The notes below the pieces were generated by a model, which searched no databases, was not told the DNA's origin, and worked only from the letters and a program-made list of their open reading frames with translations. Source: Synergistaceae bacterium (GTDB lineage Bacteria > Synergistota > Synergistia > Synergistales > Synergistaceae). From it: DNA of 37,067 bases. Positions 16,572 to 37,067 of the stretch are shown in pieces. Made by a program: the position numbers and the translations under genes. The stretch covers positions 1 through 37,067 of the forward strand of contig JAIROA010000082.1 of the NCBI GenBank assembly GCA_031257775.1, in the 5' to 3' direction. Position 1 is the first letter of the stretch. Every line of letters begins with the position of its first letter.

Positions 16572-16756
16572 GCTAGGGCGCTAAGGCGGCATAGGTGGAT
16601 ACAGCGGTTGCGGCTTCATCCAGGTTTTCTTGAGGTTATGTACAGGGGATTCCGGCCGGTCTTAAAAATGAGAAAGGGGGGGTAAGGGAAGATCGGTCCA
16701 TGTTGCGTCACGTAATACTTGATTTCTCACAATTACACAACGGAGGGGTTAAAAAA

Positions 16757-17488
16757 ATGAGCAATCTTTTAGGCGAATTTCTTGGTACTATGACTCTCTG
16801 CGCGTTCGGAGACTCTGTGGTAGCTAACCTCGTTTTGAAAGATACCAAGGGAAACGGCGCTGGCTGGGTTCACGTAAACTGGGGCTGGTCTTTTGGCCTC
16901 ATGATGGGCATCTACGCCGCGTGGGCTTTCGGCGCCGGCGAAGCCGACCTGAATCCCGCGGTGACGATTTTCAAGTTCCTAATCGGCGGTCACTACACGG
17001 CATCTCAGGTCATCCCGACCATCATTGCGGAAGTAGCCGGCGGCACCGTGGGGGGCGTAGTCGTTTACTTCCTGTACCTCAACCACTGGGACATCACTGA
17101 GGATCCAGGCCTCAAGCTCGCGGTCTTCGCGACGGGCCCCGCAAAGCGCGATCTTCTCCCCAACTTCATCACTGAGGTAATAGCCACTTTCTTCCTCATT
17201 ATGGGCATCCAGTGCATCGTCAGGGCTATGGGCTCCAGCGAGGTCAATCTGTATCTTCTGCCCTTTATGATCGGCGGACTTCTGTACGCTCTGGGTGCCG
17301 GCATGGGCGGCGCGACGGGGTACGGCATGAATCCGGCCCGCGACATGGGCCCGCGCATCGCGCACGCAATCCTGCCGATCCCCGGCAAGGGAACGAACGA
17401 CTGGCAGTTCGGCCTATCCGTAGCGACTGCCGGCCCGATCGTAGGCGCCCTTATCGCGGTTGCGGCTTACAAACTGGCTGGCTGGTAG
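16757..17488 (+). CDS. glpF: Glycerol uptake facilitator (aquaglyceroporin)
   Basis: 243-aa MIP-family channel for glycerol diffusion across the inner membrane. Two NPA half-helix motifs are visible, DLNPAVT (Asn66) and MNPARDMGPR (Asn192); Asp after NPAR is the glycerol-facilitator signature, as against plain aquaporins. Six membrane helices fit. Start ATG 16757 has GGAGGGG 8 nt upstream; an in-frame ATG at 16700 would add 19 non-conserved residues. It is the first gene of the long + strand glycerol/BMC block, followed after 42 bp by dhaK. Intracellular glycerol would feed GlpK and, on the microcompartment reading, the dehydratase. Confidence 0.95.
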   Translation: MSNLLGEFLGTMTLCAFGDSVVANLVLKDTKGNGAGWVHVNWGWSFGLMMGIYAAWAFGAGEADLNPAVTIFKFLIGGHYTASQVIPTIIAEVAGGTVGGVVVYFLYLNHWDITEDPGLKLAVFATGPAKRDLLPNFITEVIATFFLIMGIQCIVRAMGSSEVNLYLLPFMIGGLLYALGAGMGGATGYGMNPARDMGPRIAHAILPIPGKGTNDWQFGLSVATAGPIVGALIAVAAYKLAGW

Positions 17489-17530
17489 ACGAAACACGCA
17501 GCACCGCACTAGTTAAGGAGGCGTTGCAAT

Positions 17531-18529
17531 TTGAAGAAACTCATCAATAAAGTAGACGACGTCGTAATAGAATCGCTTGCCGGCATGGGCGAGGCCTTTC
17601 CGGATCTGATAAAGATACTTCCGGAAGTCCGAGTCGTGGCACGCAAATCGGCGCCGCATCCCAAAGTAGCGGTAATATCCGGCGGCGGAAGCGGGCACGA
17701 GCCGATGCACGGCGGTTTCGTCGGGTATGGGATGCTTGACGCGGCCTGCGCGGGAGAGGTATTCACCTCGCCCAGCCCCGATCAGATGTACGAAGCCGCC
17801 AAGGCTGTGGATGGCGGCAAGGGAATTCTCTTTCTCGTCAAAAACTACACGGGCGACATAATGAACTTCCAGATGGCCGCTGACATGCTTGCCGGCGAGG
17901 GAGTCAAAGTCGAGCAGGTCGTCGTGAACGACGACGTTGCCGTCAAGGACTCGCTCTACACGGCGGGGCGGCGCGGCGTCGGCGGGACTGTCCTGATCGA
18001 GAAGATCATAGGTGCTTACGCTCAGGCCGGAGCGTCGCTGGAAGAGGTCAAGGCATTGGCGGAGGAGACGAACGCCAAGGTACGCTCCATGGGAATGGCG
18101 CTAACGAGCTGCACCGTCCCGGCGGCGGGCAAGCCTACTTTCGATCTCCCGGAAGACGAGATAGAGCTGGGGATAGGCATCCACGGCGAACCTGGGCGCG
18201 AGAGGGTAAAGCTCAAGACATCCGCTGAGATAGTCGAGTATATGGCCTCCGCGATCACGAGCGACCTACCGTTCAAAGAGGGCGACGAGGTTCTGGCGTT
18301 CGTCAACGGCATGGGCGGCACCCCGCTCATCGAGCTGTTCGTAGTCTACAACGATCTCAAGAAGTTCCTGGACAAGAAGGGGATCACGGTTGCGCGCAAC
18401 CTCGTTGGAAACTACATCACGAGCCTAGACATGCAGGGCTGCTCCATAACGCTCCTCAAGCTTGACAGCCATACCAAGGCTCTCTGGGACTATCCGGTCA
18501 AGACTCCCGGATTGCGTTGGGGGAGGTAA
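17531..18529 (+). CDS. dhaK: Dihydroxyacetone kinase, substrate-binding subunit DhaK
   Basis: 332-aa DhaK subunit, which binds dihydroxyacetone covalently through a histidine as a hemiaminal. That residue is His218 in GIGIHGEPG, the same position as in E. coli. The N-terminal fold shows GGGSGHEPMHGGFVG and GEVFTSPSPDQM. It starts with TTG 17531, placed by AAGGAGG 9 nt upstream and by the canonical N-terminus MKKLINKVDDVV. DhaL lies 8 bp downstream and DhaM after that, making the phosphoenolpyruvate-dependent three-subunit kinase. No glycerol dehydrogenase (dhaD/gldA) that would supply dihydroxyacetone is seen in the window. Confidence 0.96.
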   Translation: MKKLINKVDDVVIESLAGMGEAFPDLIKILPEVRVVARKSAPHPKVAVISGGGSGHEPMHGGFVGYGMLDAACAGEVFTSPSPDQMYEAAKAVDGGKGILFLVKNYTGDIMNFQMAADMLAGEGVKVEQVVVNDDVAVKDSLYTAGRRGVGGTVLIEKIIGAYAQAGASLEEVKALAEETNAKVRSMGMALTSCTVPAAGKPTFDLPEDEIELGIGIHGEPGRERVKLKTSAEIVEYMASAITSDLPFKEGDEVLAFVNGMGGTPLIELFVVYNDLKKFLDKKGITVARNLVGNYITSLDMQGCSITLLKLDSHTKALWDYPVKTPGLRWGR

Positions 18530-18537
18530 CAGGAAAT

Positions 18538-19167
18538 ATGGCATTCACCCTCGAAATGGCACTGCGCACCCTTCAGAATTTCAGCGAGGCGGTAGAGGAG
18601 AAAAAGGACTACCTGACGGATCTCGATTCCGCCATAGGCGACGCGGATCACGGAATAAACATGAACCGCGGGATGAAGAAGGCCATGGAAAAAACCTGCG
18701 GCAAAGAGTACAGTGATTTCGGGGGGCTTTTCAAGGATATCGCAATGACCATAATGAGTGCCGTAGGCGGCTCCGCTGGGCCGCTATACGGCACTTTCTT
18801 CATGAAACTGGGACAGAAGCTCGCCGGGAAGAGCGAAGCCCCGCTGGAGTCCGTGGCAGACGCGCTTCAGGAAGGGCTGGGCGGCATAACGACGCTCGGC
18901 AAGTCGCAGGCTGGAGACAAGACCATGGTCGACGCCCTGCAGCCCGCCATCGGCGCTCTCAGGCTCGCGGCGCCGGAAGGGGATGCCGCGGCGTGGCAAG
19001 CCGCCGTGGACGCGGCGGAGAAGGGCATGACGGACACTATCCCGATGCTCGCGAAACGCGGACGCAGCAGTTATCTGGGCGAGCGCTCCATCGGGCATCA
19101 GGATCCCGGCGCCACGTCCATCTTTTATCTCATCTCGGCTTTCCGGGATGCTTGCGTTAAGGAATGA
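18538..19167 (+). CDS. dhaL: Dihydroxyacetone kinase, ADP-binding subunit DhaL
   Basis: 209-aa all-helical subunit holding ADP as a cofactor that is phosphorylated by DhaM and passes the phosphate to DhaK-bound dihydroxyacetone. The Mg-binding motif DSAIGDADHGINMNRG (three Asp) and the SQAGDKTMVDALQPA segment are intact. ATG 18538 is preceded by GGGAGG at 18520-18525 within the end of dhaK; an in-frame TTG at 18517 is less likely. The end contains GERSIGHQDPGATS, the conserved DhaL finish. Length is standard. Confidence 0.96.
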   Translation: MAFTLEMALRTLQNFSEAVEEKKDYLTDLDSAIGDADHGINMNRGMKKAMEKTCGKEYSDFGGLFKDIAMTIMSAVGGSAGPLYGTFFMKLGQKLAGKSEAPLESVADALQEGLGGITTLGKSQAGDKTMVDALQPAIGALRLAAPEGDAAAWQAAVDAAEKGMTDTIPMLAKRGRSSYLGERSIGHQDPGATSIFYLISAFRDACVKE

Positions 19168-19173
19168 CGTGAC

Positions 19174-19581
19174 ATGATTGGAATCCTCATAGTATCGCAC
19201 AGCGAGGACGCGGCGCGGGGCATAGCGCAGATAGCCGAGGGGATGGCGCCGTCTAAAGGCAGCGTATCGGTATCAGGCGTAGGCGGCAATGACGACGGCG
19301 GCCTCGGCGTATCGGTCGCTAAAATCTACGCCGCGCTTACCGAAATGCTGCCAAGGTGCGACGGGATTCTCATCCTGCCGGATCTCGGCAGCTCCATACT
19401 CTCGTCAAGAGGCGCGATCGGGATGTTATCCGGCGAAGAGGCCGCGAAAATCATCATTGCCGACGCGCCCGTCCTCGAAGGGGCCATGATGGCGGCGGTC
19501 GAGGCCAGCACAGGCTCGGATCTGGAGACGGTGGCCGCTACGGCGAGGGACGCGAAAAATCTGAAAAAAGGCGATCATTGA
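19174..19581 (+). CDS. dhaM: Dihydroxyacetone kinase phosphotransfer subunit DhaM (EIIA-man-like, single domain)
   Basis: 135-aa EIIA-mannose-like domain with the phospho-accepting His9 in ILIVSHSEDAARG and the conserved LPDLGSS loop. Unlike E. coli DhaM it lacks the fused HPr and EI domains, so it must take phosphate from a separate general PTS (EI, HPr) encoded elsewhere. It follows dhaL by 6 bp in the canonical K-L-M order. It is the reason the kinase is predicted to use PEP and not ATP. glpK begins 51 bp downstream. Confidence 0.94.
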   Translation: MIGILIVSHSEDAARGIAQIAEGMAPSKGSVSVSGVGGNDDGGLGVSVAKIYAALTEMLPRCDGILILPDLGSSILSSRGAIGMLSGEEAAKIIIADAPVLEGAMMAAVEASTGSDLETVAATARDAKNLKKGDH

Positions 19582-19632
19582 CAGCCCTTTGACCGCAAAT
19601 TGGTGCAAACCAACATTAGGAGGGGTTTTAGA

Positions 19633-21168
19633 ATGGCCGAGAAAAAATACGTAGTCGCGATTGACCAGGGAACGACAAGCTCACGCTGTATGCTTTTCGA
19701 TAAAAAAGGGCTCCCCGTCGCGTCAGATCAGATGGAACACGCGCAGATATTCCCGAAGCCCGGCTGGGTCGAGCACGACGCGATGGAAATATGGGCAAGG
19801 GTTCAGGATGTGGTGAGAAACGCGCTTAAAAAGAGCGGAGTCTCCACAGACGAAATCGCGTCAATCGGCATCACGAACCAGCGCGAGACGACGGTCGTTT
19901 GGGAAAAAGCCACAGGCAAGCCGATATACAACGCGATAGTGTGGCAGTGCACACGCACTGAGGATTTCTGCAAGGAATGGCAGAAGACTCCCGGATGGGG
20001 ACAGGACGAGACTGGGCAGGGCAAGGTCAAGGAGCATACGGGCCTTCTCATCAACCCCTACTTCTCGGGCACGAAGATAAAGTGGATACTGGACAACGTG
20101 CCTGGATCCAGGGAAAAGGCCGCTAAAGGCGAGCTTCTCTTCGGCAACATCGACACATGGCTCATCTGGAACCTGACGGGCGGGCCAAACGGCGGAGTGC
20201 ATGTGACGGATGTCTCCAATGCCTCCCGCACGCTCCTCATGAACATAAAGACGCTCAAATGGGACGAGGAAATGGCTAAATTCCTCGACGTGCCCATCGC
20301 TATGCTCCCGGCGATCAAGCCATCGAGCGCCGTCTACGGCAACACGATCCCCGGCGGGCCGTTCGGCGCTCCCATCCCCGTCGCGGGCGACCTGGGCGAC
20401 CAGCAGGCGGCCCTTTTCGGGCAGGCTTGCTTCAACAAGGGCGACACAAAGAACACTTACGGGACGGGCTGCTTCATGCTGATGAACATCGGCGAAACCC
20501 CGGTCTCATCGAAGAACGGGCTTTTGACGACGGCAGGGTACAGCCTCGAAGAGGGCAAGTGCGTTTACGCCCTTGAGGGATCCATAGCCATCACGGGCGC
20601 CGCTGTCCAGTGGCTCCGCGACAACCTGAAGATAGTGGACGAATCCCCGGACAGCGAGTATCTGGCGAATAAGGTCGACGACAACGGCGGAGTCTACTTC
20701 GTCCCCGCGTTCTCCGGCCTGTACGCCCCATATTGGGATATGAGCGCTCGCGGCGTCATAGCCGGACTGACGCGCTACGTCCGCAAGGAACACATCATCC
20801 GCGCCACGCTCGAGAGCATCTGCTACCAGACGCGCGATGTCGTCGAGGCTATGAACAAGGACTCCGGCGTGCCGCTTGCCGAACTTAAAGTTGACGGCGG
20901 CGCGGTTAAGAACAACCTTCTCATGCAGCTTCAGTCCAACATCTTGGGCGCAAAGGTCGTGCGCCCCGTCGTGAACGAGACGACAGCCTTGGGCGCTGCT
21001 TATGCTGCCGGCCTTGCCGTAGGCTTCTGGAAGAACATCGACGACCTCCGCGAGAACTGGGCAAAGGATGTCTCGTTCTCCCCGACGTGGTCCGACGAGA
21101 AGAAGGAAGCCGGATACAAGGGCTGGAATAAGGCCATTGAGAAGTCGAAGGGATGGATCGACGACTGA
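19633..21168 (+). CDS. glpK: Glycerol kinase
   Basis: 511-aa FGGY-family kinase converting glycerol and ATP to sn-glycerol-3-phosphate, trapping glycerol in the cell. Signatures include [15 protein letters not shown], the substrate-contact segment NQRETTVVW and [21 protein letters not shown] and the C-terminal [14 protein letters not shown] block. Start ATG 19633 is set by AGGAGGGG 8 nt upstream, so the extra 11 residues from 19600 are leader. It sits between dhaKLM and the G3P dehydrogenase pair, completing a glycerol-to-DHAP route. A strong hairpin lies in the 104-bp gap after it. Confidence 0.97.
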
Positions 21169-21196
21169 TCTGACTCATTACTGACTGGAATGCCTG

Positions 21197-21244
21197 CCCG
21201 CCCGAAGCCGCGCGTGAAAATTTCCAGGCGCGGGTTTGGGCGGG
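21197..21244 (+). promoter_or_regulatory. Strong intercistronic hairpin between glpK and the GlpA-like gene
   Basis: Arms 21197-21212 and 21229-21244 pair at 15 of 16 positions (one G-T wobble, one G-G mismatch), around a 16-nt loop. It is GC-rich but not followed by a T-tract, so it looks more like an mRNA stabiliser or partial attenuator than a terminator. The next gene's ribosome site (AGGAGG) begins ~15 nt after it. Confidence 0.65.
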
Positions 21245-21272
21245 GCATAAGGCTGCGGGAGGAGGATACCCT

Positions 21273-22769
21273 TTGCAGGGTTTCGTCAAGGAAAACGGCA
21301 ATTACGACGTACTGATTATCGGATGCGGGATAGTAGGCGCCACGATAGCTAGGGAGCTGTCGCGCTATACGATGAAAATCGCCGTTTTGGAGAAGGCGTC
21401 CGATATTCCTTTCGGCGCCAGCCGCGCAAACAGCTCAATGATCCACGGCGGTTTCGACGACGAGCCAGGCAGCGCCAAGGCAAAGTTCTGTCCGAAAGGC
21501 AACAGGATGTACCACAGGCTTCATGAGGAACTGGACTTCAAACTCAGGAAGTTCGGATCGTTCGTATGCGCGAAGGGCGAGTCGGAAGAGCGCCACTTAA
21601 AGAAACTTTTCGAACAGGGCAAGGCGAACGGTGCCGTGGGCATGGAGATCGTCTCAGGACAGAAGCTTCGCGAGAAGGAGCCCCACACGGCGCCGGACAT
21701 AACGGCTGCGCTGTGGTGCGAATCAGGTGCCATAGTGAACAATTTCGAGGCCACGCTGGCATTTATCGACAACGCCAGGCAGAACGGCGCGGCGCTTTTC
21801 ATGGAGACCTCAGCAGACGGGCTTTTGTTCGACGAGACGCGTTCGAGCGTTCGCGGCGTCTCGACAAACAGGGGAAATTTCCGCGCCCCTGTCGTGATAA
21901 ACGCTTCCGGCGTTTACACGGACGTAATTTCAAGGATGGCCGGGGACGACAGCTTCATCATTCACCCGACGAGGGGAGAATATTTCATATTCGACAGGAC
22001 AGTGGGGGGCATGGTGACTTCCTTCCTTTTTTCATGCCCTTCGGCGCTTGGCAAGGGTATAACGGTGACGCACACAGCCGACGACAATCTTTTGATCGGG
22101 CCTACGTCCGTCCAGCAGGCCGGCCGGGATAATAGAAACACGACAGTGCCGGGCCTCGACGAGACATTCGACGGCGCAAGGCGCCTCGTGCCGGGCATAC
22201 CGAGAAATATGGCGATAACGACATTCTCGGGCGTGAGGGCAAACATCAACACGGGCGATTTTTACATAAAGGCGCTCGACCGCCCTCGGGGATTCATCAA
22301 CGTCGCGGGCATAAAATCCCCGGGCTTCACGAGCGCTCCAGCCATTGCCGAATACGTGGCGGAGCTTATGAGGGAGAACCTGGGAGATGTCGTTAAATTC
22401 GAAAACGACCCGGCATTCGTGCCGGAGAGAAAGCATATACCGCGCTTCATCGATCTTCCGAACGAGGAGAGAGCGCGCCTTGCCAAATCCGACCCGAAGT
22501 GGGGACAGATAGTCTGCCGCTGCGAGAGCGTCACGGAAGCTCAGGTGGTGGAAGCGATCCGCAGGGGCGCCCGCACTGTAGCGGCCGTAAAGCTTTGGGT
22601 GCGTCCCGGGACAGGCCGCTGTCAGGGCGGATTCTGCTCTCCAAGGGTCGTCGAGATCCTTTCAAGAGAGCTTGGGATCTCTCCGCTTGAAATAACACGC
22701 CACGGAGGAGATTCATACATGCTTACAGGCAAAACGAAACAGCCGCTTTTGCCGGAGTCCGCGCAATGA
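21273..22769 (+). CDS. GlpA-like FAD-dependent glycerol-3-phosphate dehydrogenase with BFD 2Fe-2S domain
   Basis: 498-aa flavoprotein predicted to oxidise glycerol-3-phosphate to DHAP under anaerobic conditions. The FAD-binding motif LIIGCGIVGATIARELS is at residues ~13-30, followed by the DAO-fold core with GASRANSSMIHGGFD. A C-terminal BFD-like domain has four cysteines, C415-x-C417 and C450-x4-C455, for a [2Fe-2S] cluster. The TTG start at 21273 has AGGAGG 8 nt upstream. It overlaps the next flavoprotein by ATGA. Placement after glpK supports G3P as substrate, but this subfamily also includes other 2-hydroxyacid oxidases, so the exact substrate is inferred. Confidence 0.85.
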   Translation: MQGFVKENGNYDVLIIGCGIVGATIARELSRYTMKIAVLEKASDIPFGASRANSSMIHGGFDDEPGSAKAKFCPKGNRMYHRLHEELDFKLRKFGSFVCAKGESEERHLKKLFEQGKANGAVGMEIVSGQKLREKEPHTAPDITAALWCESGAIVNNFEATLAFIDNARQNGAALFMETSADGLLFDETRSSVRGVSTNRGNFRAPVVINASGVYTDVISRMAGDDSFIIHPTRGEYFIFDRTVGGMVTSFLFSCPSALGKGITVTHTADDNLLIGPTSVQQAGRDNRNTTVPGLDETFDGARRLVPGIPRNMAITTFSGVRANINTGDFYIKALDRPRGFINVAGIKSPGFTSAPAIAEYVAELMRENLGDVVKFENDPAFVPERKHIPRFIDLPNEERARLAKSDPKWGQIVCRCESVTEAQVVEAIRRGARTVAAVKLWVRPGTGRCQGGFCSPRVVEILSRELGISPLEITRHGGDSYMLTGKTKQPLLPESAQ

Positions 22770-24055
22770 GCGATTACGCCGGCATCCGAGAAGTCGATGT
22801 GGCCGTAATCGGCGGAGGCCCGGCCGGCATTGCCGCCGCCATAGCCGCGCGCAAGGAAGGCGCTCTGAAGGTCGTCGTATTCGAGCGCGACTGGGAGGCG
22901 GGCGGGATACTGCAGCAGTGCATTCATCCCGGTTTCGGCCTTCACATGTTCGGTCTTGAGCTGACGGGACCGGAATATATGGATAGATATCTGAAACAGG
23001 CGTATGAAGCCGGAGTCGAGTTCGCGCTGAACACGATGGTATTTCAGATGGATCCCCCGGCCGAGACTGACGGGCGGAAAACGGCGTCGTTCTGGATCAT
23101 GAGCCCTAAGACGGGCATTGAGAAAGTACACGCTAAATCCGTCGTTCTTGCCATGGGGTGCAGGGAACGCCCGGCCGGCGCTTTGGGCATAGCCGGCAGT
23201 AGGCCGGCTGGCGTGTACACCGCCGGAACGGCTCAGAGATTCGTGAACATGGAGGGCTGCATGCCGGGCAAAAAAGCGGTCATCATGGGGACAGGAGACA
23301 TTGGCCTCATTATGGCCCGACGCATGATGCTTGAGGGCGCGGAGGTCGTGGCAGTCTTCGAGATAATGCCCTGGGTTTCGGGCCTCAGGCGAAATGTCGC
23401 CCAGTGCCTCGACGACTTCGGGATACCGTATTATCTGGAACACAGCGTCTGCGAGCTGCACGGCAAGGACAGGCTCGAAGGGATATCAGTGGTCAAAATC
23501 GGCAAGGACAGGCGCCCGGTAGACGGGACGCTCCGCTTTGTCGGCTGCGACACGCTGCTTCTGGCCGTCGGCCTCATACCGGAGAACGAGCTGTCCCGCA
23601 TGGCAGGAGTCGAGATATCCCCGCTGACGAACGGCCCGGTCGTGAACGATTTTCTTCAGACAAGCGCCGACTGCATTTTCGCGTCCGGCAACGTCGTTGT
23701 GGTATACGACCTCGTGGACTTCGTGAGCGAGGCGGGAGAGCGTGCGGGAAGCAGCGCCGCGCTTTACGCGATGGGAAAACTCAGCAAGCCTCGCGAGCTG
23801 CCGATAGAAACGACGCCCAACATCAGGGTAGTCTCCCCGCAGAAGCTGTGCGGCGGGCGCGACACGACGGTTTTCGTCCGCGTCGCCGAGCCTATCGAGG
23901 GCCGGTGCAGGCTCTTCGCGGAGCCCGGGATATTTTCTCAGACGCTCCGCTACGCAAGGCCCGGAGAGATGAACGAAGTCAAAATCAGCGCGGAGAAATT
24001 CAGGGCGCTGCCTGAGACGGAAAAATGCGTAAGAATAGGCATAGAGGCCTTTTAA
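22766..24055 (+). CDS. GlpB-like NAD(P)/FAD-dependent oxidoreductase subunit
   Basis: 429-aa pyridine-nucleotide-disulfide-type flavoprotein. The first Rossmann motif is VAVIGGGPAGIAAAIAARKEG (residues ~12-32) and the second dinucleotide motif is AVIMGTGDIGLIMARRMML near residue 172; an ATG motif reads VVLAMGCRERPAGA. It lacks the CxxxxC redox pair of true disulfide reductases, although a Cys-x-His segment (GILQQCIHPGFG) is conserved in this subfamily. It partners the GlpA-like subunit (4-bp overlap) and the DUF1667 protein, an arrangement seen in anaerobes in place of GlpABC. It probably relays electrons from G3P oxidation to NAD(P) or a carrier. Confidence 0.82.
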   Translation: MSDYAGIREVDVAVIGGGPAGIAAAIAARKEGALKVVVFERDWEAGGILQQCIHPGFGLHMFGLELTGPEYMDRYLKQAYEAGVEFALNTMVFQMDPPAETDGRKTASFWIMSPKTGIEKVHAKSVVLAMGCRERPAGALGIAGSRPAGVYTAGTAQRFVNMEGCMPGKKAVIMGTGDIGLIMARRMMLEGAEVVAVFEIMPWVSGLRRNVAQCLDDFGIPYYLEHSVCELHGKDRLEGISVVKIGKDRRPVDGTLRFVGCDTLLLAVGLIPENELSRMAGVEISPLTNGPVVNDFLQTSADCIFASGNVVVVYDLVDFVSEAGERAGSSAALYAMGKLSKPRELPIETTPNIRVVSPQKLCGGRDTTVFVRVAEPIEGRCRLFAEPGIFSQTLRYARPGEMNEVKISAEKFRALPETEKCVRIGIEAF

Positions 24056-24079
24056 ACAGGACTACGGAGGTTCTGTGAC

Positions 24080-24451
24080 ATGACCTTGAACGAGGAGACA
24101 AAGAAATTCATTTGCGTTTCATGTCCGGTCGGCTGCCTTCTGAAGGTCACCGTCCAGGGAAAAGATGTGCTGTCCGTAGAGGACAATGGCTGTCCTCTTG
24201 GCATCAAGTACGCTAAAAACGAAATAGCTAACCCGGTGCGCACATTTACCTCGACCGTGCGGGTGAGCGGCGCTCATCTTCCCGTCTGCCCCGTGAGGAG
24301 CAGGATCCCCCTGCCGCTTTCGAAGATGCGCGATGTGGCGAGGGAAGTTGCGAAGGTTCAGGCAATCGCGCCGATTTCAATCGGCCAGATTCTAATTGAG
24401 GACGTATGCGGCACAGGATCTGATATAATAGCCAGCAGATCTCTTTCATAA
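24080..24451 (+). CDS. DUF1667 Cys-rich redox partner
   Basis: 123-aa protein of the DUF1667 family, found next to GlpA/GlpB-like flavoproteins in anaerobes. Cysteines at 12, 15, 19 and 38 (CVSCPVGC then NGC) and Cys70 look like a metal- or Fe-S-binding set. The C-terminal 40 residues are helical and lack further motifs. The start at ATG 24080 has GGAGG ten bases upstream. It closes the glycerol module; its last ~30 bases overlap a strong extended -10 box for the next operon. Biochemical role is unproven; electron transfer is inferred from its partners. Confidence 0.85.
   Translation: MTLNEETKKFICVSCPVGCLLKVTVQGKDVLSVEDNGCPLGIKYAKNEIANPVRTFTSTVRVSGAHLPVCPVRSRIPLPLSKMRDVAREVAKVQAIAPISIGQILIEDVCGTGSDIIASRSLS
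24421..24429 (+). promoter_or_regulatory. Extended -10 candidate promoter for the BMC operon
   Basis: TGATATAAT is an exact TGnTATAAT extended -10 element inside the last codons of the DUF1667 gene, ~60 nt before the pduU ATG. Extended -10 promoters can work without a good -35; the nearest TTGAGG is at a 22-bp spacing. It would let the microcompartment genes be expressed apart from the glp/dha genes. Confidence 0.5.
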
Positions 24452-31232: not shown

Positions 31233-31774
31233 GCGTTTTTTCCGTCTGGTTCGGACAGGTAGGCACCCCAAGCGCCCTGCCCGAAAAAAAACCCGCAATC
31301 TGGCTCATTACCGACCCGTCCTGCCCGGAGGACGCGGCACGGAAAGTAGCGGACGGCTGCGAGGAGGAGGGGACCCCCCTCGCGTGGGACGTGAGGCAGG
31401 GCAGCGCCAGCGATCTCGCGCGCGAAGCGTGTCTTTCTTCTCACCTGGAAACAGGCATAGGCATAGGCCCGGACGGAACGGCCGCCATCGCCCTCGTTTC
31501 AGTGAGCGAAAAGCCGTACATCGAGATGACGTCCGGCGCGGCGGATGAAAAACGGCTCCGCTGGCTCGGGCAGGCGGCGGCGCGGATCACAAAGAGCCAG
31601 CCGATACCGCCCAGAAGCGAAAATGCCCTCATGACGCCGCTAAAGGCGGAAGAGCCCAAAAACGCGCAGACGGACAAACAGCCTGCGGGCGAAGAGGCGG
31701 AAAAAGAATTATTGACGCGAATGCTGACCGAAGTGTTGCTTAACGGAATATTGAAGGGTGGAGGACTGAAATGA
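31229..31774 (+). CDS. pduH: Dehydratase reactivase small subunit with C-terminal encapsulation-like helix
   Basis: 181-aa protein. Residues ~22-115 are the PduH fold (AIWLITDPSCPEDAARKV, TGIGIGPDGTAAI, LRWLGQAAARI). Typical PduH ends near 115-125 residues; here ~60 residues are added, comprising a charged Pro/Lys/Glu linker and a final amphipathic helix (EKELLTRMLTEVLLNGILKG). That helix looks like a microcompartment encapsulation peptide placed at the C-terminus. It overlaps pduG (ATGA) and the next BMC gene (ATGA). Function as the PduG partner is secure from context; the targeting role of the tail is inference. Confidence 0.88.
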   Translation: MSVFSVWFGQVGTPSALPEKKPAIWLITDPSCPEDAARKVADGCEEEGTPLAWDVRQGSASDLAREACLSSHLETGIGIGPDGTAAIALVSVSEKPYIEMTSGAADEKRLRWLGQAAARITKSQPIPPRSENALMTPLKAEEPKNAQTDKQPAGEEAEKELLTRMLTEVLLNGILKGGGLK

Positions 31775-32376
31775 GCAGAGGCAAAGCCATGGGCTTTATA
31801 GAATCCCTAGGACTCGCTTCGGCTGTGACTGCGGCAGACGCGGCTCTCAAAGCGGCAAACGTGGAGCTGATCGGACGCGAAAATTCCAGAGGCGCGGGAA
31901 TGATCACGATAAAGATAATCGGAGACGTCGGGGCGGTCAAGGCCGCGATCGACGCGGCAAAGACCGTCTCATCGCAGGTAGCGCGCGTCTGGTCCATAGA
32001 CGTGATCCCGCGTCCGGCGGAAGCCTTGGGGCGGACGCTGGGATGGAATGCCGACACGCAGGGCGCTTCGGAGTGGCTGGGCAAAAATGAGCCCGCGCCT
32101 TTGCCGATTTCGCCCAACCTTCCCGCCATCAAAGAAGACGCGCCATTGGCAGCCCGCCCTGCCCATGAAATAGTGGCGGTAGATACCGACATACCGAAGC
32201 CGGCCATTATACCGGATCCAGGCAAAGAAGAGAGCATAAAAGAAGAAAGCATAGAGGATCATCCGGAAGAACACGCGCCTGAAGGCGGCAGCCCTGCCCC
32301 CTCGGCGGACAAAAAGCCAGACGGCACAAGACCGAAGAAGAACCCGCCGAGAAGACGGGGAAGGAAACCGAAATAA
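31771..32376 (+). CDS. PduK-like BMC shell protein with long disordered basic tail
   Basis: 201-aa protein: an N-terminal BMC domain (residues ~6-90; [46 protein letters not shown]) plus a ~110-aa extension. The extension is Pro/Ala-rich, then acidic (KEESIKEESIEDHPEEH), and ends strongly basic (RPKKNPPRRRGRKPK). Position and layout match PduK, but the Cys residues proposed to bind Fe-S in Salmonella PduK are absent, since the protein has no Cys. The pore loop ENSRGAGM differs from PduA. It overlaps pduH by 4 bp. The symbol is withheld because only layout is shared. Confidence 0.88.
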   Translation: MSRGKAMGFIESLGLASAVTAADAALKAANVELIGRENSRGAGMITIKIIGDVGAVKAAIDAAKTVSSQVARVWSIDVIPRPAEALGRTLGWNADTQGASEWLGKNEPAPLPISPNLPAIKEDAPLAARPAHEIVAVDTDIPKPAIIPDPGKEESIKEESIEDHPEEHAPEGGSPAPSADKKPDGTRPKKNPPRRRGRKPK

Positions 32377-33409: not shown

Positions 33410-33727
33410 ATGGCTCTCAATTATAAGCTGATATTAGCTCCGTCAGAATCCGTTAAGAGGATGCTCGCTCGGCGCATGACGTTCGGTAAAGCCTCGTCTG
33501 AGGCGGACGCGCTCAAGGTCATGAGCTGGGGCGCTGTCCTGATGGTGCAGGGATCTGTTCCCGACTTGTTTTACGCCGCCGACATAGGCGCCAAAATCAG
33601 CCCTGTCTTCGTGGCGGAAGTCGTAGGAAACTGCCCGCAGAATATCGTGACGATGGCGTTCGTCGGCAACGTGGCGGACGTGAGGCAGGTTTTGGATGCC
33701 CTTAAAAATGAAGGAGTGGTTTCATGA
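33410..33727 (+). CDS. Divergent BMC-domain protein
   Basis: 105-aa protein. Residues ~40-102 align by eye to a BMC domain: SVPDLFYAADIGAKISPVFV matches the helix with AAD and K, and MAFVGNVADVRQVLDAL matches the VRGDV-VkaA helix. The usual GLIET opening is replaced by GAVLMVQGS, and the pore loop by GNCPQN with a Cys. A 38-aa N-terminal extension (LILAPSESVKRMLARRMTFG) replaces the usual start. AAGGGGGG precedes ATG 33410, and it overlaps pduN by ATGA. I considered PduM, but length and pattern disagree. It is probably a specialised shell or shell-associated subunit. Confidence 0.7.
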   Translation: MALNYKLILAPSESVKRMLARRMTFGKASSEADALKVMSWGAVLMVQGSVPDLFYAADIGAKISPVFVAEVVGNCPQNIVTMAFVGNVADVRQVLDALKNEGVVS

Positions 33728-34032
33728 ATCTCGGAAGGGTTGTTGGCTCAATCGTCGCTACCCGCAAGGACGAAAGGCTGCGCGGACATAAATTATTGCT
33801 CGTTCAGAAGCTCAAGCCAGGCGAAGGCGGGCAGTTCATCCCATCAAAGGGCAGCAGCGAGTTTTTGGTGTCGGTTGACCTCGTAGGCGCCGGCACGGGC
33901 GAGCTTGTCCTCTATACCTCTGGCAGTTCGGCCAGAAACGCGGCGTCCGAATCGTATGACAACCCCATAGACGCCGCAATTGTAGGAATTGTCGATCAGA
34001 CGGACATAGACGAGAGAGTTCTTATCCTCTAA
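33724..34032 (+). CDS. pduN: PduN/EutN/CcmL-type BMC vertex protein
   Basis: 102-aa pentameric vertex protein that caps the shell corners. It shows the BMV pattern: MNLGRVVGSIVATRKDERLRGHKLLLVQ, the SVDLVGAGTGELVLYTSGSSAR core (G-A-G at the pore, G-S-S-AR) and DAAIVGIVDQ at the end. Length is normal. It overlaps the divergent BMC gene by ATGA. With only one vertex gene in the window this should be the sole corner protein, unless another lies beyond the right edge. Confidence 0.95.
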   Translation: MNLGRVVGSIVATRKDERLRGHKLLLVQKLKPGEGGQFIPSKGSSEFLVSVDLVGAGTGELVLYTSGSSARNAASESYDNPIDAAIVGIVDQTDIDERVLIL

Positions 34033-34051: not shown

Positions 34052-35446
34052 GTGGAATCGCACGCCGACGAGAGCCTTATACTGGAGATAACCCGCAAGG
34101 TAGCTCTGACGCTCGAAAACGGAGGCGCCTTTGGCGGGCTTTACGGGCACGTCGACACGGCAGTCACGGCAGCTCTCAAAGCACAGCAGGCGTGGCAATG
34201 GGAATTTTCGCACAAAGATAGAATCAGGATCATAAACGAGGCAAAAGCTGAGCTGGCGGGCGATGACGCGGTAAACGAGCTTGCCCTGCTGTCCGTGGCG
34301 GAAACTGGGATGGGGCGCGCGCGGGACAAGGCAGCAAAAATCAGGCTCGCTTTAGAGAAAACGCCCGGACCTGAATCCTTTAAGGCAAACGCCGTCATGG
34401 GAGATCACGGGCTCGCGCTTGAAGAGCTGTCGCCGTTCGGGGTAATAGCGTCTTTAGTCCCGTCTATAGACGCGGCGCCGGTTGTTTTCTGCAACGCCTT
34501 AAATATGATATCCGGCGCCAACGCCGCCGTGATAACCCCGCACCCGGACGCGATAAAGACAGCCCTTCGCGCCGCGGATCTCCTGAGCGTGGCGCTCGCG
34601 AAGAGCGGCGCGCCTGAAGGGCTCGTTTCGGCAATACGGGATCCGGGTGCCCCGAACCTTGAAAAACTCATAAATCATCGTTCAATAGCGCAGATCTGCG
34701 TAACAGGGGGAAGCGCGGCCGTCTCTTCCGCGCTCAGATCCGGAAAGCCCGTCATCGCGGCAGGGCCTGGAAATCCTCCCGTCATGGTCGACGGGACGGC
34801 GGATCTCCGCAAAGCGGCCCGTGACATAGTGTCAGGGTGTTCTTTTGATAACAACTCCTCCTGTCTCGGCGAAAAGGCCCTCTTCGTCACGCACGGCGCG
34901 GCTAATGAGCTAGTAGGGCTCATGATGGCAGAAGGCGCCGTCACGCTCCCAAATCCAAGGGACGCGAGGCGTCTCATGGACGTCCTGCTCAAAGGGCGCG
35001 TTCCTGACAAACGGCTCTTAGGCAAGAGCCCCTGCCATATCCTGGCCGCGGCGGGCATATCCGTCCCGAAAGACACGAAGCTCATCCTTGTGGAAACAGG
35101 AGAGACGCACCCATTCGTCCAGGAGGAGATCATGGCGCCGATACTTCCGCTCGTGAGGGTGGCAGACTTCGAGGACGGGCTTGCCGCGGCAATAAGGGCC
35201 GAGCATTCCTTGCGCCACTCCTCGGCCATATACAGCGCAAACATCCGTAACATGAGCAGGATGGCGAGGGCAATGGGGACTTCTATTTTTACGAAAAACG
35301 CGCCGGTGTTTTCGGCGATAGGTTATAATGGTGACTGTCCAACAGCCTTTACGATAGCGACAGTGACCGGGCAGGGGCCCGTGACGCCGGTTGCTTTTTG
35401 CAGGACCAGAAGGTGCGTGCTGTCGGGCGCCTTCAGCATCGTATGA
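34052..35446 (+). CDS. PduP-like aldehyde dehydrogenase paralogue with altered active site
   Basis: 464-aa member of the CoA-acylating propionaldehyde dehydrogenase family. The segments ETGMGRARDKAAKIRLALEK, AAGPGNPPVMVD, QEEIMAPILPLVRV and RTRRCVLSGAFSIV all fit PduP. The nucleophile is kept as Cys271 (FDNNSSCLGEK). The conserved P-S/C-T-N-P motif, whose Asn stabilises the acyl intermediate in the aldehyde dehydrogenase superfamily, reads PSIDAAP, with Asp140 at the Asn position; the second copy downstream keeps PCTNP. It starts with GTG 34052 seven bases after GGGAGGAG. Activity may be altered or lost; no frameshift is seen. Confidence 0.88.
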   Translation: MESHADESLILEITRKVALTLENGGAFGGLYGHVDTAVTAALKAQQAWQWEFSHKDRIRIINEAKAELAGDDAVNELALLSVAETGMGRARDKAAKIRLALEKTPGPESFKANAVMGDHGLALEELSPFGVIASLVPSIDAAPVVFCNALNMISGANAAVITPHPDAIKTALRAADLLSVALAKSGAPEGLVSAIRDPGAPNLEKLINHRSIAQICVTGGSAAVSSALRSGKPVIAAGPGNPPVMVDGTADLRKAARDIVSGCSFDNNSSCLGEKALFVTHGAANELVGLMMAEGAVTLPNPRDARRLMDVLLKGRVPDKRLLGKSPCHILAAAGISVPKDTKLILVETGETHPFVQEEIMAPILPLVRVADFEDGLAAAIRAEHSLRHSSAIYSANIRNMSRMARAMGTSIFTKNAPVFSAIGYNGDCPTAFTIATVTGQGPVTPVAFCRTRRCVLSGAFSIV

Positions 35447-35489: not shown

Positions 35490-36473
35490 ATGCCTAGAAT
35501 TTACACGAAAACCGGTGATGCCGGAAAGACCCGCCTCTGGGACGGGACGCTAGTCGACAAGAATGACCTCCACATCGAGACAAACGGGGCGCTGGACGAG
35601 ACAAACGCCGCGCTTGGCCTTGCGAGGAGTTTGGCCCCGGATAGCGTCAAGAATGAGATAGATGCCCTCCAGAGCAGCCTCATAACGCTCATGGCCTACA
35701 TCGCGAGAGGGAAAAAACCGCAACCGGCGCCCGATCCGGAGGAACTTGAAAAAAGAATCGACAGGATACTCGAAGACTACCCCATGGGCAACAGCTTCGT
35801 CAATCCCGGCGAGTCGCAGGCCGGCGCCGCCATACATATGGCCCGCGCCACTGTAAGAAGGGCCGAGCGTTTCGCCCTCAGGATCATGGAGGAGGGCGGG
35901 GACGTCGAGCCGCAAGCATACAAATACATAAACAGGCTTTCTGACTTTCTCTTCGCATTCGCGCATAAGACAGACGTCGAGAGCAAAGTGGCACAAATAA
36001 CCCGCGAGGTGATGCATAGGGCATCGTCAGGCGGCACGGATGGCTTTCGTAAAAAACTCGATCTGGATACGGCGCTCGCCCTCTTGACGGAAGCGAGTCT
36101 CAAGGCGGAAAGCATAGGGAAAAAGCTCGTCTTCGCCGTGGTGGACGCTTCTGGCGAACTCATTGCCCTTCACCGCATGGAGGGCGCGCTTTTGGTCAGC
36201 ATAGCCCACGCGCAGAGCAAGGCGCGCTCGGCGGTGCGCATTCAGCTCGACACGAAGGACATCACGCCTTTGGCCCAGCCCGGCGCTCCTTTTTACGGCG
36301 TCCAGAACGAGCCGGAATTCTTCTCCATAATAGCGGGCGGGCGCCTTCTTCGCGACGGGGACAGGATATTGGGCGCGATAGGCGTGAGCGGAGGGAGCGT
36401 CGATGAGGATTTGGCGGTCGCCGACGCGGTGGTCAGCCTTTTTGACAGCTTTGACGGCTCTATAGGAAAATAA
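35490..36473 (+). CDS. pduO: Two-domain PduO: ATP:cob(I)alamin adenosyltransferase plus C-terminal heme-binding-type domain
   Basis: 327-aa protein making adenosylcobalamin for the dehydratase. The N-terminal domain (residues ~1-175) has YTKTGDAGKTRLWDG (ATP loop), RATVRRAERFALRI and YINRLSDFLFAFA, the PduO-type signature. Residues ~185-325 are a DUF336/GlcG-like domain (LVFAVVDASGELIALHRMEGA, GAIGVSGGSVDEDLAVADA), known to bind heme in some PduO proteins. The domain order and length match Salmonella PduO. GGAGG precedes ATG 35490. Its presence makes B12 activation local to the locus. Confidence 0.96.
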   Translation: MPRIYTKTGDAGKTRLWDGTLVDKNDLHIETNGALDETNAALGLARSLAPDSVKNEIDALQSSLITLMAYIARGKKPQPAPDPEELEKRIDRILEDYPMGNSFVNPGESQAGAAIHMARATVRRAERFALRIMEEGGDVEPQAYKYINRLSDFLFAFAHKTDVESKVAQITREVMHRASSGGTDGFRKKLDLDTALALLTEASLKAESIGKKLVFAVVDASGELIALHRMEGALLVSIAHAQSKARSAVRIQLDTKDITPLAQPGAPFYGVQNEPEFFSIIAGGRLLRDGDRILGAIGVSGGSVDEDLAVADAVVSLFDSFDGSIGK

Positions 36474-36522
36474 ATTCAAAAAATTCATTAAATAAAATTT
36501 AAGCAAAGGGGACGTGAATGAG

Positions 36523-37067
36523 ATGACTCAAGGCGCGGATATCCAGGCGATAGTGCAACAGGTTCTTTTAAAAATGCAAGACGCCGCGAAAGAACCATCA
36601 GGCTTCGGTGACCTCGGATGCGACGTGGATAAATATGTGGAGGCCGCGACGCGGGCTCAGGGGATCTGGCACCGCGATTTCGGCCTCGACAGGCGATGCC
36701 AGATCGTCGAGGAGATAAGGGCTGACTTGAGGCCGCATGTCGAATCCCTCGCCAAAATGGCGGTCGAGGAGACCGGAATGGGCAACCTCCGCGACAAGAT
36801 AACCAAAAAGACCGTGACGATCGAAAAAACGCCTGGCCCAGAAAGCATCAAGCCGCGCGCGATAACGGGGGACAAGGGCCTCGTGCTGGAGGAACACGCG
36901 CCATACGGTGTGATCGCCTCCATTATCCCATGCACGAACCCCGTCGCGACCGTCATTCACAACGCTATCTGCATGATATCCGGCGGGAACTCCGTCATAT
37001 TCGCGCCGCACCCGAAGGCTTTAAAGGTCTCGCTCAGGACTGCCGAGATCATCTGCCAGACGCTGCG
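36523..37067 (+). CDS. pduP: CoA-acylating aldehyde dehydrogenase PduP (partial, runs off the right edge)
   Basis: The first ~181 codons of a PduP-type dehydrogenase, cut by the window end. Residues 1-18 (TQGADIQAIVQQVLLKMQ) form an encapsulation peptide, then ETGMGNLRDKITKKTVTIEKTPGPESIKP and the intact motif IIPCTNPVATVIHN, as expected for an active enzyme converting propionaldehyde or 3-hydroxypropionaldehyde to its acyl-CoA. ATG 36523 is chosen; GTG 36514 is in frame but too near the AAAGGGG. The catalytic Cys lies beyond the edge. It is clearly paralogous to the gene at 34052. Confidence 0.93.
   Translation, partial: MTQGADIQAIVQQVLLKMQDAAKEPSGFGDLGCDVDKYVEAATRAQGIWHRDFGLDRRCQIVEEIRADLRPHVESLAKMAVEETGMGNLRDKITKKTVTIEKTPGPESIKPRAITGDKGLVLEEHAPYGVIASIIPCTNPVATVIHNAICMISGGNSVIFAPHPKALKVSLRTAEIICQTL

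Follow-up and report, generated by a model that had tools for sequence, protein, structure and literature searches.

The pdu operon of a Synergistaceae bacterium encodes, beside a canonical PduP (P2), an extra, lineage-specific PduP paralogue (P1) that is still under selection and carries Asp in place of the oxyanion Asn. We propose, at a probability slightly under one half (about 0.48), that P1 has a remodelled active site and is kept, probably as cargo of the microcompartment, that P2 performs the ordinary NAD/CoA aldehyde oxidation, and that the Cys-His-Glu apparatus of P1 has probably been repurposed. Both genes lie at the 3’ end of the window, by which we mean the whole stretch of DNA analysed, 37,067 nucleotides in length. 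The principal features are as follows.

33724..34032, + strand: PduN/EutN-type vertex protein, immediately upstream of P1 (homology match)
34052..35446, + strand: P1, PduP paralogue; Asp140 replaces the oxyanion Asn, with Cys271, His389, Glu359 and Lys96 retained (NF011927 match)
34052..34117, + strand: residues 1-22 of P1, candidate amphipathic targeting helix at the N-terminus (alignment, hydrophobic moment, predicted helix)
34460..34480, + strand: PSIDAAP motif, P1 residues 137-143; the D140 codon, GAC, is 34469-34471
34862..34864, + strand: codon of the catalytic Cys271 of P1 (alignment)
35490..36473, + strand: PduO cobalamin adenosyltransferase, between P1 and P2 (profile/homology match, tree)
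36514..37067, + strand: P2, canonical PduP (PCTNP), truncated where the contig ends; contig C122 of the same genome terminates in the probable C-terminal part

Organisation of the pdu operon

P1 is encoded within a pdu microcompartment operon, with genes for PduB, C, D, E and G, EutJ, PduN, PduO and BMC proteins around it. P1 and P2 are approximately 47% identical, and the PduP fragment that ends contig C122 is very probably the remainder of P2. We additionally identified a third gene in the same genome, a separate EutE-like sequence on contig C119, with the normal Asn.

Two further proteins of the operon are of note. The product of 31771-32376 is a BMC-domain shell protein whose C-terminal tail is long and Lys/Pro-rich, and the gene, with a dN/dS of 0.149, is among the fastest-evolving of the operon. 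A 105-residue protein (33410-33727) occupies the PduM position, has a weak BMC-domain match and is conserved in relatives (50-82%). A PduL-type phosphotransacylase (L080, G000:C122:11106-11630) is encoded outside the operon on another contig, and is likewise off-operon in two related genomes, G034 and G039. We did not find a PduL-type phosphotransacylase in G001, a nearly complete genome, or in G032, both of which have a pdu operon.

Directly 5’ of the operon lies a glycerol gene set (16700-24451), consisting of a GlpF-type channel, DhaK, DhaL, an EIIA-man/DhaM-like protein, an FGGY kinase, GlpA-like and GlpB-like oxidoreductases and a DUF1667 protein. Its position suggests that glycerol may be used as well as 1,2-propanediol.

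Family assignment and predicted structure of P1

The P1 open reading frame begins with GTG, encodes 464 amino acids and is intact, and a Shine-Dalgarno-like ggaggag ends 7 bases 5’ of its start. Its score against the NF011927 profile (483.8 bits, cut-off 403) places it within the PduP/EutE-type acylating aldehyde dehydrogenases, and by sequence family we assign it as a PduP-family CoA-acylating aldehyde dehydrogenase. The AlphaFold2 model has a mean pLDDT of 89.4, and its top PDB matches are PduP structures (4c3s, 5jfl, 5jfm and 5jfn; TM 0.89-0.91, 37-40% identity). The P1 N-terminus aligns with the N-termini of sister PduPs, has a hydrophobic moment within the top 3% of the windows along the protein, and is predicted to be helical over residues 2-22, at lower confidence. 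This candidate helix is consistent with microcompartment targeting, although it does not prove it.

Distribution of the Asn to Asp substitution

The first-pass annotation of this DNA had described two PduP-type genes that differ by PSIDAAP and PCTNP, giving D140 in P1 where P2 has Asn, and this description holds. We surveyed the position in genomes of the phylum and in public genomes with names, counting only sequences that cover the segment; the phylum sample comprised 188 genomes, of which 38 had a match at 1e-80 or better. Asn was seen in all other PduP/EutE/AdhE-type proteins, amounting to more than 50 distinct genes and extending down to 28% identity, and in every background PduP/EutE row covering the site within a 37-row set.

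The sole other case of Asp is the P1 orthologue of G034, which has the motif PSVDPA and is 70% identical to P1. Its locus is on public contig JAISYM010000019.1, from Synergistaceae isolate Nc350_bin32, of the same genus as G000, the genome of the window. We take such isolate codes to denote termite-gut MAGs, and both species to be termite-gut Synergistaceae. The gene order PduN-P1-PduO-P2 is shared, with P1 and P2 two genes apart in both species. Since two independently assembled MAGs share the Asp, an assembly or sequencing error is excluded. The codon at the site is most commonly AAC among relatives and is GAC in both P1s, a single transition. P1 is known from two sequences, and the literature searched held no report of a natural PduP that lacks the oxyanion Asn.

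Active-site residues retained and altered

D140 aligns gaplessly to N138 of the Clostridium phytofermentans PduP Cphy1178 (4c3s), for which a double role has been proposed, as oxyanion residue and, together with K94, in proton relay (PMC4762007); the view that P1 has lost the oxyanion residue is thereby upheld. The equivalent Asn of PutA hydrogen-bonds the aldehyde oxygen (PMC12398946). In AMSDH, Asn169 has been changed to Ala, Ser, Asp and Gln, and dehydrogenase activity is reported to be lost upon mutating this residue (PMC10143591, review). The oxyanion Asn expected of an active CoA-acylating propionaldehyde dehydrogenase is replaced by D140 in both P1 orthologues.

The remaining catalytic residues are in place. 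C271, H389, E359 and K96 align to C269, H387, E357 and K94 of Cphy1178 (the catalytic Cys, base His, CoA-activating Glu and relay Lys, respectively), Cys271, the retention of which the first-pass annotation had noted, lying within FDNNSSCLGEK, and all four are retained in both orthologues, together with His164.

We identified further changes beside that at residue 140. Four of the 79 positions with at least 95% conservation are altered in both P1s: T139 (to Ile/Val), N140, M362 (to Ala) and T444 (to Val). As controls, seven ingroup pairs, P2 included, showed no shared changes at these 79 positions, and four more distant pairs showed from two to nine, the EutE pair having the most. Around the NAD adenine, P1 further differs at the counterparts of L198, P219 and V221. 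The earlier emphasis on a single substitution was right in that the substitution is real, but it is not the lone change.

Two compensating changes were considered and rejected. Alignment with PduP structures, the check that the first-pass annotation had called for, showed the oxyanion position to be taken by no other Asn. N151, the one P1-specific Asn nearby that both orthologues share, is 11 residues on and three turns along a predicted helix (141-154), which by helix geometry places it approximately 16 Å away. The position equivalent to the hydrolytic base Glu268 (236) is, by our reading of the alignment, Ala in P1.

These data bear on whether P1 could be an ordinary active isozyme, in which Asp140 would be tolerated, either through protonation or because the oxyanion hole is formed by Lys96 and the backbone amide of the Cys, perhaps with preference for another aldehyde such as 3-hydroxypropionaldehyde from glycerol. 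Every other catalytic residue is retained, P1 lies above the PduP/EutE-type cut-off and is under purifying selection (see below), and the glycerol gene set is directly upstream. However, the Asn is invariant in the related enzymes surveyed, even the most distant, the AMSDH mutants lose activity, the NAD-adenine pocket is altered too, and G039, with upstream glycerol genes belonging to this set, has no P1. We therefore regard an ordinary isozyme as improbable. P1 probably does not work efficiently as an NAD/CoA aldehyde dehydrogenase, and its job probably differs from that of the normal enzyme P2.

Phylogenetic origin of P1

The P1 pair, placed in a tree of 39 PduP/EutE proteins, is nested in a clade of normal, Asn-bearing PduPs from G032, G033, G029, G147, G145 and others (support 100/98). 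The P1 stem (0.74) and tips (0.31 and 0.24) are long, those of P2 in the same two species being 0.066 and 0.082, and the exact placement of P1 is uncertain owing to its long branch. Its closest relatives, at 55-57% identity and in the same clade, are the single PduPs of G032, G029, G147 and G145, from Synergistaceae and another family of the order. These carry PSTNP, in contrast to PSID/PSVD in P1, and the P1 branch is several times longer. In G032, which has a complete operon, the PSTNP protein is the only PduP of the operon, whereas P1 stands beside P2.

G039 is sister to the two species in the P2, PduO and dehydratase core trees, and is without P1. P2 and PduO thus agree with the operon core, which makes P1 the extra copy. 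On this sequence evidence it would have been gained by duplication or transfer, or else lost in G039. The converse arrangement, with a native P1 and a newcomer P2, is ruled out, as P2 and PduO track the operon core tree.

The PduO proteins of G032, G033, G026 and G001 (L035, L036, L042 and L043) are only approximately 40% identical to that of G000, and the dehydratase genes of G032, G033 and G001 (G026 left out) are 66-85% identical to those of G000. The types of PduO and of PduP thus switch jointly from operon to operon.

Selection on P1 and P2

We compared selective constraint with a custom codon model on 12 genes. Omega was 0.098 on the P1 tips and 0.036 on the P2 tips, a supported difference (2dlnL 12.1, p = 5e-4), and fixing the P1 tips at an omega of 1 was rejected (2dlnL 271). 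Pairwise dN/dS was 0.160 for P1 and 0.062 for P2 taken at full length, with PduH and the 31771 shell protein approximately as high as P1. The dS is approximately 1.3 between the two P1s and 1 per tip, and is saturated on the P1 stem, so that an omega for the stem is meaningless. P1 is therefore relaxed relative to P2 yet clearly constrained by purifying selection, which answers the earlier suggestion that selection be checked across relatives.

A redundant, functionless copy decaying after duplication or transfer would account for the longer tip branches of P1. Such decay is very improbable, given the rejection of neutrality, an intact frame in two species at this divergence, the retention of a ribosome-binding site and catalytic residues, and a dN/dS matched by two other genes of the same operon. 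The selection tests and the intact frame in both G000 and G034 likewise exclude a pseudogene. The first-pass annotation had offered a changed reaction, a pseudo-enzyme or another specificity; a non-selected degenerate copy is now removed from this range, while a changed reaction or specificity and a pseudo-enzyme subunit are not separable by sequence.

Distribution of changes along P1

Conservation by segment, measured against the sister PduP consensus, differed along the protein. Among the well-sampled segments, conservation in both species is lowest in the oxyanion loop and helix (137-154; 0.38 and 0.56), next lowest in the Rossmann and 247-300 parts (approximately 0.65), and highest in the oligomerisation segments 113-136 (0.84-0.89) and 431-464 (0.83-0.93). 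Within residues 137-154, 6 of 16 conserved positions are kept in G000 (Fisher p = 0.008) and 9 of 16 in G034 (p = 0.15). The clustering of changes in this segment is thus significant in one of the two species only.

This pattern bears on a further explanation, by which P1 would be a pseudo-enzyme subunit without useful catalysis, forming mixed tetramers with P2 and tuning P2 activity, cofactor or CoA binding, or microcompartment packing. A PduP homologue is a D2 tetramer (PMC4762007), both species encode the two proteins two genes apart, divergence is greatest in the oxyanion helix and Rossmann region and least in the oligomerisation segments, and Asn mutation is reported to abolish activity in AMSDH. 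The preserved segments suit a structural subunit equally well as they suit an enzyme. However, P1 and P2 have less than half of their residues in common, and Cys271, His389, Glu359 and Lys96 are retained in both lineages although folding does not depend on the Cys and His. We consider such a subunit possible but doubtful. The Cphy1178 variants C269A and H387A are reported to be structurally normal (PMC4762007), and the retention of Cys271 and His389 is therefore best explained by a chemical role. We accordingly lean towards repurposed catalysis over a structural or regulatory subunit.

Proposed function

Under repurposed catalysis, P1 would have entered the operon, between pduN and pduO, in the common ancestor of the two Synergistaceae, or would have been retained in these two only, and would have been kept as microcompartment cargo, presumably encapsulated, with P2 supplying the ordinary activity. 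P1 would still use its Cys-His-Glu residues, for catalysis other than efficient CoA-acylating aldehyde oxidation, the normal activity presumably having been lost. Asp140, perhaps paired with Lys96, may act with the altered aldehyde-side residues and NAD-adenine pocket to accommodate another substrate or another, possibly non-redox, thioester or thiohemiacetal reaction. The chemistry that we would favour is of the thioester or thiohemiacetal kind, centred on Cys271, with Asp140 beside Lys96. More specifically, P1 may be a naturally neofunctionalised ALDH-superfamily microcompartment enzyme with an Asp140-Lys96 pair in place of the oxyanion Asn, so that Cys271 either acts on a new aldehyde or runs thioester chemistry without redox, such as acyl-CoA hydrolysis or acyl transfer; in this precise form we find the idea rather unlikely.

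The TNP Asn is treated as essential across the ALDH superfamily, and P1 offers a natural test of the role of that residue beside a canonical copy. P1 could also point to a new reaction, or to a regulatory subunit, within Pdu-type microcompartments, with its reach limited so far to two species.

Comparison with known systems

Non-catalytic ALDHs of the ALDH16A1 type are natural pseudo-enzymes of the superfamily that lack the catalytic Cys; P1, in contrast, retains the Cys and loses the oxyanion Asn. The Asn169 mutants of AMSDH are an engineered version of the P1 substitution in the same superfamily, with activity reported lost (PMC10143591), but AMSDH is a hydrolytic ALDH with another substrate, and the substitution in P1 is natural. 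With PduP/EutE-type enzymes, P1 shares the fold, the four catalytic residues (Cys, His, Glu and Lys) and the setting of a pdu operon, and its N-terminus has a predicted helix where the targeting helix would lie. It differs from them in the Asp for the invariant Asn, in the changes at Thr139, Met362 and Thr444, in the NAD-adenine pocket, and in being a second copy beside a canonical PduP. P1 is thus a variant within a known enzyme family, and not a new kind of system.
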